Assembly (NCBI GenBank): GCA_028065725.1
Contig: JAPTVL010000055.1
Location: 62,001 to 126,000, forward strand
From: Betaproteobacteria bacterium
Lineage (GTDB): Bacteria > Pseudomonadota > Gammaproteobacteria > Burkholderiales > Rhodocyclaceae
Length of the DNA stretch: 64,000 nucleotides
Reading direction: 5' to 3'
Positions within the stretch are counted from its first letter, which is position 1, and the number at the start of each line of letters is the position of its first letter. The position numbers were made by a program, and so were the translations under genes. The notes beneath the pieces were generated by a model. The model was not told the origin of the DNA. It worked only from the letters and a program-made list of their open reading frames with translations, and did not search any database. Shown piece by piece: positions 32,576 through 36,201 of the stretch.

Positions 32576-33343
32576 ATGCCGGCAATCCCACCTCGCAAGG
32601 CACTGATGAATCCCGAGCTGCGTCGGCGCGGGATTTATTTGCTGCCCAACCTGCTGACTACTGCCGCCCTGTTCTCCGGCTTCTACGCCATCGTCCAGGC
32701 GATGACGGGACGCTTCGAGCATGCGGCGGTGGCGATATTCATCGCCATGGTATTCGACGGTCTCGACGGTCGGGTGGCACGCATGACGCGGACCCAGAGT
32801 GCTTTCGGCGCCGAATATGATTCCCTGTCGGACATGGTGTCCTTTGGCGCTGCTCCGGCCCTGATCGCTTTCGAGTGGGCGATGAAGGGTATGGGCAAAT
32901 GGGGCTGGATCGCGGCCTTCGTCTATTGTGCGGGGGCAGCGCTGCGCCTCGCCCGCTTCAATACCAATATCGGCATTGTCGATAAGCGTTATTTTCAGGG
33001 GCTGCCCAGTCCGGCGGCGGCGGCACTGGTCGCCGGTTTCGTCTGGATCATCAACGACCTCAACATTCCGGGCGACGAGGTGCGCTGGTATGCCTTCGCA
33101 CTGACCCTGTTTGCCGGCATTACCATGGTCAGCACGTTGCGCTACTGGAGTGGCAAGGACATCAATCTGCGTCGTAGCGTACCGTTCATGGTGCTTCCCG
33201 TCATTGTCCTCGGCTACGTGCTGGTCTCGTCGTATCCACCGGGGGTTCTGTTCGCCTTGTTCCTGGCCTACGCCCTGTCTGGCTATGTGATGGCAGCATG
33301 GACCTGGCGCGGAAAGCGAAAGCAGGGTGCCGGCGGGGGCTAG
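32576..33343 (+). CDS. pssA: PssA, CDP-diacylglycerol-serine O-phosphatidyltransferase
   Basis: Integral membrane CDP-alcohol phosphatidyltransferase making phosphatidylserine. 255 aa. The catalytic signature D-G-x2-D-G-R-x-A-R-x8-G-x3-D-x3-D is complete: DGLDGRVARMTRTQSAFGAE followed by YDSLSD. About eight hydrophobic segments. ATG 32576 gives a Pro/Arg-rich opening seen in relatives; ATG 32606, with AAGG upstream, is a real alternative. pssA between ilvC and leuA is a common betaproteobacterial order. Confidence 0.92.
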   Translation: MPAIPPRKALMNPELRRRGIYLLPNLLTTAALFSGFYAIVQAMTGRFEHAAVAIFIAMVFDGLDGRVARMTRTQSAFGAEYDSLSDMVSFGAAPALIAFEWAMKGMGKWGWIAAFVYCAGAALRLARFNTNIGIVDKRYFQGLPSPAAAALVAGFVWIINDLNIPGDEVRWYAFALTLFAGITMVSTLRYWSGKDINLRRSVPFMVLPVIVLGYVLVSSYPPGVLFALFLAYALSGYVMAAWTWRGKRKQGAGGG

Positions 33344-33387
33344 CTTCAGCGCTCGTGACCCGGGGAAACAGGCTGTAACAAAACTTG

Positions 33388-33416
33388 TTGCACGCCCGGA
33401 ATAAAATCTTTATAGT
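33388..33416 (+). promoter_or_regulatory. Sigma-70 promoter of the leuA leader transcript
   Basis: TTGCAC (33388-33393), exactly 17 bases, then TATAGT (33411-33416). The expected start lies at about 33423-33425, on or next to the ATG of the leader ORF, so the leader mRNA may be leaderless. Confidence 0.7.
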
Positions 33417-33423
33417 CATTGCC

Positions 33424-33534
33424 ATGAGTTCCTCATCCGGTTTTGTCGTTCTGTTTCTTGTTCTTTCGGGCGCGCTTGCCGCGCGCCTGACGCTGCGCGC
33501 CAAGCTGCTGCCGCTGCTGCGCCGCGCGCGCTAA
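33424..33534 (+). CDS. Leucine-rich leader peptide of leuA
   Basis: 36 codons, too short for usual gene finders. The peptide begins MSSSSGFVVLFLVLSGALA and has ten Leu codons, with a CTG-CTG-CCG-CTG-CTG cluster at codons 28-32, five codons before the TAA. No Shine-Dalgarno sequence; the ATG lies seven bases after the -10 box. The stop codon lies three bases before a CCCCTC that can pair with part of the downstream terminator hairpin. This is the layout of a leucine-responsive attenuation leader, comparable in principle to enterobacterial leuL. A membrane micropeptide role cannot be excluded. Confidence 0.7.
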   Translation: MSSSSGFVVLFLVLSGALAARLTLRAKLLPLLRRAR

Positions 33535-33537
33535 ATA

Positions 33538-33604
33538 CCCCTCCCCCACAATCCGGTTGTTGATAGTGCCCGCTCCGCGAGGGGCGGTATAACGCTTTGT
33601 TTTT
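33538..33604 (+). promoter_or_regulatory. leuA attenuator: competing terminator and antiterminator stems
   Basis: Terminator: CCGCTCC (33570-33576), loop GCGA, GGGGCGG (33581-33587), then a T-rich stretch TTTGTTTTT at 33596-33604. Antiterminator: CCCCTC (33538-33543), directly after the leader stop codon, pairs perfectly with GAGGGG (33579-33584) and would destroy the terminator. A ribosome stalled on the leader Leu codons would leave CCCCTC free; one reaching the stop would cover it. The T-tract begins eight bases after the stem, so termination strength is uncertain. Confidence 0.6.
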
Positions 33605-33621
33605 GGTGTTGGTTTCGGCTG

Positions 33622-33647
33622 CTGCAGTTAACCCATTCCCACTGCAG
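33622..33647 (+). other. Second hairpin in the leuA leader
   Basis: CTGCAGT (33622-33628) and ACTGCAG (33641-33647) form a 7-bp perfect stem with a 12-base loop. No T-tract directly follows. It may take part in the leuA leader fold or lie between leader and RBS without function. Confidence 0.4.
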
Positions 33648-33687
33648 GTAGTTTCCGCCGAAGCTTCATTTTTTCCAGGAGATAGCA

Positions 33688-36201
<2,514 letters not shown>

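Follow-up and report, generated by a model that had tools for sequence, protein, structure and literature searches.

Textbooks present amino acid attenuation as a choice between two RNA folds. In the leu- and trp-type attenuators of enterobacteria, the biosynthetic gene is preceded by a leader ORF that contains end-product codons. The leaders described here resemble these attenuators in having end-product codons in a leader ORF upstream of a biosynthetic gene, but no mutually exclusive fold, U-tract terminator, or Rfam match was found for them. The leucine leader is strongly conserved, with no second fold, mostly no U-tract, apparent translation without a Shine-Dalgarno (SD) sequence, and hairpins at a fixed distance from the Leu codons.

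The comparisons that follow draw on partial texts of the cited papers. In Actinobacteria, leaders with Leu runs have been reported before leuA, and the LEU element described there combines a pseudoknot with a stem in which the Leu codons pair with the leuA SD (PMC1262725). Streptomyces lividans is reported to have a leaderless Leu leader of 15 residues before leuA that is without a typical Rho-independent terminator (PMC8079986), and a Leu-run leader also precedes leuA in Corynebacterium. The leaders here share with the LEU element and LeuL1 a short Leu-run leader directly before leuA (PMC1262725, PMC8079986). In contrast, the LeuL1 peptide has 15 aa compared with 25-46 aa in the proteobacterial leaders here, and the ORF-end hairpin and G-poor linker of the latter are absent from the LEU/LeuL1 description as far as the available text covers it. 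In Campylobacter, LeuL is likewise a Leu-run leader before leuA; unlike the leaders here, it was sought with a ribosome binding site, and its RNAs stop shortly past the stop codon (PMC3847290).

Two further systems are related in their start or in their layout. The trpL leader of Sinorhizobium meliloti is a proteobacterial leader RNA that begins with ATG, as is predicted for those here, but it is a 14-aa Trp leader with a terminator and an antiterminator (PMC7298713). At tnaC of Escherichia coli, a ribosome released at the leader stop uncovers a rut immediately downstream, and one that stays in place blocks Rho (PMC8429421). Ruts are described as YC-rich and unstructured, with a high C:G ratio (PMC12121999). 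In the leaders here, the sequence directly after the leader stop is a candidate rut, and its composition fits. Unlike the codons here, which match the product of the operon, tnaC encodes an arrest peptide that responds to free Trp and has Pro24 ahead of the stop (PMC8429421); among 79 leaders from this study, none has Pro at the end and 4 contain Trp, and the peptide of our locus has neither. The present leaders are closest to the leaderless leuA leaders of Actinobacteria and, in their logic, to tnaC. Leaderless mRNAs are described in papers on transcription start sites in Burkholderia cenocepacia and in Cupriavidus metallidurans; the available portions of both make no mention of leucine, leader peptides, or attenuation. 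Among the papers listed by our literature search, which had thin coverage of subscription papers, none describes a betaproteobacterial leuA leader.

A leucine-rich ORF lies between pssA and leuA

The DNA analyzed (the window) is a stretch of 64,000 nucleotides. It contains ilvB, ilvN, and ilvC, which encode the acetolactate synthase large and small subunits and ketol-acid reductoisomerase (NCBIfam), as well as pssA (TIGR00473) and leuA. A pair of promoter boxes and a short leader ORF are located between pssA and leuA (Table 1). A preliminary description of this DNA had reported a Leu-rich ORF of this length, with ten Leu codons and a CTG-CTG-CCG-CTG-CTG run near its end, and the sequence bears this out. 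As in classical attenuators, the short ORF carries a run of end-product codons before a biosynthetic gene. The alternative leader start TTG at 33385 was rejected: both promoter boxes are downstream of this codon, so the leader promoter could not transcribe it.

Table 1. Features of the leuA leader region in the window
Feature	Position	Strand	Remarks
-35 element TTGCAC	33388..33393	+	3 of 6 consensus positions (TTG); TTGC recurrent in relatives
-10 element TATAGT	33411..33416	+	17-nt spacer from -35; 7 nt before ATG
Leaderless leader ORF (predicted)	33424..33534	+	ATG 33424, TAA 33532-33534; 36 codons, 10 Leu
Hairpin GGGCGCGC..GCGCGCC, counterpart of P0	33466..33490	+	Further upstream than family position
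Putative regulatory codons CTG CTG CCG CTG CTG (Leu-Leu-Pro-Leu-Leu)	33505..33519	+	
P1 hairpin UGCGC-CGC-GCGCG at ORF end	33518..33530	+	Begins inside last Leu codon
Linker after stop, G-poor, C-rich, weakly structured; candidate rut	33535..33566	+	
H2 core hairpin CCGCTCC-GCGA-GGGGCGG	33570..33587	+	7 bp, one G-U pair, -12.7 kcal/mol
leuA, 2-isopropylmalate synthase	33688..35226	+	512 aa; AGGAG in front

The leader is widespread upstream of leuA

We collected loci by LeuA protein similarity alone and took the best 80 of 581 confirmed loci. A leader of the window's kind was present at 49 of these 80, with 40 of the beta type and 9 of the gamma type. The closest of the 80 is L001, from a Rhodocyclaceae bin, whose LeuA is 96% identical. 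Its leader has the same promoter, the same ORF length, and the same peptide end (KLLPLLRRAR) as that of the window, with a different N-terminus. The single Pro between Leu pairs (LLPLL) is found in only 4 of 123 leaders, namely those of the window, L001, L003, and L016. From leader stop to leuA, the distance is 153 nt in the window and 89 nt in L001, a difference due to an extra hairpin at 33604-33672. This hairpin, between H2 and leuA, is stable (-22.2 kcal/mol, z -2.31). A 22-nt probe taken from it had no second copy within the window, and a repeat search over 33400-33700 returned no repeats.

Among the 80 loci, leader presence varied with the space upstream of leuA. When pssA ended less than 150 nt from leuA, the leader was found in 0 of 17 loci; when the distance was at least 150 nt, it was found in 39 of 43. 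Loci without pssA upstream had the leader in 10 of 20 cases.

A motif blind to leuA was also searched: TATAKT, 5-10 nt, ATG, 57-87 nt, and YTGCGCNNNGYGCGC, with the stop codon left out. It matched 78 of 399 genomes in the order of L001, and the reversed motif matched 1 of 399. Of the 78 matches, 73 are in-frame leaders located 68-172 nt upstream of a leuA-family gene. A further in-frame leader (L135) sits at the end of its contig, and the other four matches (L086, L087, L097, and L158) are unrelated and apparently due to chance. An earlier version of the motif, applied at the class level, matched 1 of 369 genomes, that of L001 itself. In five of the 73 (L102-L105 and L131), the leader stands upstream of a LeuA just 29-33% identical to that of the window, and the leader therefore accompanies two LeuA lineages. 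The two of these proteins that were tested (L102 and L131) best match leuA_yeast-type models; the window LeuA best matches the leuA_bact type.

These counts depend on a promoter filter, with TATAKT 5-10 nt before the ATG in the 73 motif leaders and a spacing of 4-11 nt in the beta leaders of the 80 loci. Dropping the promoter criterion in the 31 remaining loci gave three matches (L029, L051, and L059), which were judged to be chance by position or sequence. Four gamma leaders (L052, L066, L067, and L073) were included by eye, and L078, which has 139 nt of upstream sequence and a gamma-type ORF end, was scored as lacking a leader. The leader before leuA is real and widespread, beyond what chance would give. 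In a search with 4,227 Rfam models, neither the leader region of the window nor 14 related loci had a match at the gathering threshold; matches below the threshold were taken as chance. For the family analyses, 79 non-redundant beta leaders (37 found by similarity and 42 by the motif) were drawn from 114.

Leader RNAs are predicted to be leaderless and to sense leucine

The promoter had been described as near-consensus. Its two boxes and their spacing are present, but the term overstates the match, as the -35 element agrees only in its TTG and a sigma-70 scan of 32800-34200 returned no site at the scan threshold. In the 79 non-redundant beta leaders, the -10 box is TATATT in 50 and TATAGT in 27, and the ATG follows its end after 6 nt (26 leaders), 7 nt (35), 8 nt (9), 9 nt (5), or 10 nt (4). 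The 41 beta leaders found by similarity, including that of the window, likewise have spacings of 6-10 nt (14, 16, 7, 2, and 2). None of the 79 contains GGAG, GAGG, AGGA, or AAGG at -18..-3 of the leader ATG, and the same SD-like tetramers occur at -18..-3 of leuA in 74 of the 79. In the gamma leaders, the best -10 box is 17-28 nt away in 4 of 9. The promoter positions strongly suggest that the leader RNA begins at or a few bases from the AUG and is translated leaderless. With such a start, the ribosome would load on the 5' end without an SD sequence.

The codon preceding the last Leu is also Leu in 71 of 77 beta leaders, encoded as CTG (55), CTA (8), TTG (5), or TTA (3); two of the 79 leaders were left out for lack of a YTG-CGC anchor, and the last Leu itself (position 0) is Leu by construction. 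That Leu is kept through four synonymous codons suggests that selection acts on the amino acid. Together with the -10 spacing and the absence of SD sequences, the conservation of Leu in the beta leaders supports the proposal, made in the preliminary description, of a leaderless, translated, Leu-rich leader peptide for leuA. From these sequence patterns, a leucine-sensing role of the leader for leuA is very likely, and we would expect with high confidence that leuA responds to leucine.

Hairpins and a G-poor linker hold fixed positions relative to the leader stop

We folded sliding segments of the 79 leaders, aligned on the stop codon, and compared them with dinucleotide shuffles. Hairpin P0 appeared at -54..-24 (family z -1.12 ± 0.15), P1 at -22..+8 (-1.33 ± 0.14), and H2 at +30..+60 (-2.15 ± 0.19), and segments from about -14 to +44 folded less than shuffles (z +0.24 to +0.72). 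When the window was analyzed alone, neither the P0 region (33446-33519, z -0.45) nor P1 (z -0.08) did better than shuffles and H2 (33557-33595, z -1.78) did so modestly; the structural case therefore rests on the family.

P1 is mostly UGCGC-NNN-GCGCG across the leaders. This sequence is fixed by the motif itself in the motif-found leaders, and three leaders found by similarity (L020, L041, and L068) keep a stem at P1 with other sequences, as judged by eye. The H2 core, scored in 76 leaders after leaving out 3 of the 79 without a simple hairpin core, spans +32 to +55 relative to the leader stop (quartiles 29-35 for its start and 52-58 for its end), and its distance to leuA is more variable (31-49). 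H2 is locked to the leader stop, not to leuA. Pairs of H2 covary among the Nitrosomonas-like leaders and among the Gallionella-like leaders; only alignments of single clades were used for this count, and the consensus folds of the window clade and the Methylo-like clade were poor.

Between the stop and H2, the RNA is depleted of G. Across 41 leaders, the first 10 nt after the stop contain 2% G and 45% C. In 30 of 37 loci, the G content of the first 30 nt is within the lowest 5% for the sequence of that locus, and in 27 of 37 these nucleotides are within the extreme 5% for C minus G. YC content after the stop is in the top 5% in 21 of 37, an enrichment weaker than the G depletion. The window has no G in the first 20 nt after the stop, which is true of 0.06% of 20-nt segments of the + strand. 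By eye, a sequence resembling CCCACAAUUYGRGCAGUACCC recurs in the linker of Burkholderiales/Rhodocyclaceae leaders, from about +5 to +30 after the stop (for example, L011, L021, L025, and L049), and is not explained by the hairpins.

A single-stranded linker between two hairpins might also be expected if the hairpins set mRNA processing or stability, or bind a protein. Variants of this explanation include cleavage in the linker, with H2 capping the leuA mRNA and P1 capping a leader RNA that perhaps acts in trans, as the leaderless trpL leader RNA does in Sinorhizobium (PMC7298713, as partly available). Processing alone would leave the conserved Leu codons unexplained, and we regard this explanation, with all of its variants, as rather improbable.

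Beta leaders show no localized terminator/antiterminator switch

The preliminary description proposed that CCCCUC after the leader stop pairs with GAGGGG in a 7-bp terminator-like hairpin, giving mutually exclusive structures. Both elements are present in the window (CCCCTC at 33538-33543 and GAGGGG at 33579-33584), their pairing is possible there, and the distance from the Leu codons to the hairpin fits attenuation. Relatives, however, give the proposal no support. In 2 of 76 leaders, one of them the window, H2 has a 6-bp complement within the 16 nt that follow the stop, compared with 2.6 expected. ORF and linker segments were tested against the H2 arms and the leuA 5' region in 15 combinations; no mean z was lower than -0.28 ± 0.13, and the linker against the 5' arm of H2 gave z +0.31 ± 0.12; no localized alternative pairing emerged. 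A less finely divided comparison, of the ORF end with everything downstream, yielded a weak signal in the 41 beta leaders (z -0.46 ± 0.13), with z -0.73 ± 0.36 in the 9 gamma leaders and z +0.26 for the linker. The finer 15-test comparison did not localize this ORF-end signal.

The hairpin itself is real, but its likeness to a terminator is incomplete: it has no adjacent U-tract, being followed by TATAACG, and the T-rich stretch in the window starts about 8-11 nt after the H2 core. At least 4 T in the next 6 nt follow only 6 of 76 H2 cores. A classical attenuator, with CCCCUC:GAGGGG as antiterminator and the hairpin as intrinsic terminator, is thus highly improbable, and the beta leaders show neither the exclusive folds nor the U-tract terminator of that class.

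H2 could instead terminate by itself with a degenerate U-tract, with P0 and P1 as hairpins at which RNA polymerase pauses and so stays in step with the ribosome. This idea accommodates three hairpins in fixed places and the AAAAUUCG..CGAAUUUU hairpins of Nitrosomonas-like leaders. It also gains from a looser rule, under which 13 of 79 leaders have at least 5 T in the 9 nt after a longer hairpin; the window, with 7, is among the 13 because its hairpin, in the extended form, runs up to the T-rich stretch. Against it, a U-tract is absent from most leaders, and we see no route from ribosome position to altered H2 folding. We consider self-termination unlikely, and an intrinsic terminator at H2 was rejected as a general feature because U-tracts are rare under both rules.

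In the actinobacterial LEU element, the Leu codons are proposed to pair with the SD region of leuA and so control its translation. Such control here has in its favor that Leu codons precede leuA without a terminator in both cases (PMC1262725, as partly available). We tested for this base stem and did not find it. The Leu-codon segment against the region from H2 to leuA gave z -0.09 ± 0.10, on which the stem was rejected, and H2 keeps its place relative to the leader stop. Translational control of this kind is quite improbable.

A Rho-type decision set by ribosome position is the favored model

The best model, to which we give about an even chance, is a leucine-sensing leader in which Rho-type termination is blocked by a ribosome on the Leu codons. 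A ribosome would translate the Leu codons directly before P1. When Leu-tRNA is ample, it would reach the stop and leave, exposing the G-poor, C-rich, unstructured linker, and Rho would then act on RNA polymerase around H2, ending transcription before leuA. When Leu-tRNA is scarce, the ribosome would be held on the Leu codons beside the linker, where it may hinder Rho loading or keep NusG engaged, and leuA would be made. Stalled ribosomes probably switch leuA on under leucine shortage. It is fairly likely that control is exerted at transcription rather than at translation; that Rho is the factor involved may be as true as not. Our suggestions for P0, P1, and H2, namely pausing, spacing, or marking the borders of a Rho site, are guesses.

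We favor a Rho-type decision because of the release-then-rut layout of tnaC and the published descriptions of ruts. Several points argue against it. The linker, at about 30 nt, is short for a full rut. P1 bounds the linker about where a stalled ribosome would, and the contrast between the two states is therefore not obvious. The low G content could merely keep the RNA unfolded, and the gamma-class leaders are without a G-poor linker. The lesser enrichment in YC and the weak ORF-end pairing signal of the less finely divided comparison also count against the model. If the model is confirmed, starvation-stalled ribosomes can govern Rho/NusG termination at a biosynthetic gene, and the leader would be a convenient system in which to study how transcription is coupled to leaderless translation. 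The leader adds a small ORF and a promoter before leuA in many environmental proteobacteria.

Gammaproteobacterial leaders have a related ORF end

The gamma leaders end in Leu-Pro-stop, mostly with the stop inside a P1-like hairpin. This hairpin, at -15..+11, has z -2.28 ± 0.18 in 21 non-redundant leaders of 28. Downstream, the gamma leaders have CCUGGCGAGG and then ACGC. A gamma motif matched 19 of 274 genomes and its reverse matched none; 18 matches are before leuA, and one runs off its contig. No Rfam family matched the gamma-type leaders. Pairing of the gamma Leu run with CCUGGCGAGG was rejected (z +0.35 ± 0.22).

We tentatively suggest, at somewhat less than even probability, that the Beta- and Gammaproteobacteria share a widespread class of attenuator without alternative RNA pairing, in which a ruler for ribosome position would decide Rho/NusG-dependent termination before leuA. 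The parts of this ruler would be the leaderless ORF and the ORF-end hairpin, to which the beta form would add a G-poor linker of fixed length and a hairpin locked in position.

In a set of gamma leaders (L160-L178, L038, L050, L057, L063, L065, L066, and L073), the stop codon lies within a hairpin of the form CUGCC-NURR-GGCAG. The same leaders have a sequence-conserved CCUGGCGAGG hairpin followed by ACGC, where GCG:CGC pairing could form a small pseudoknot.
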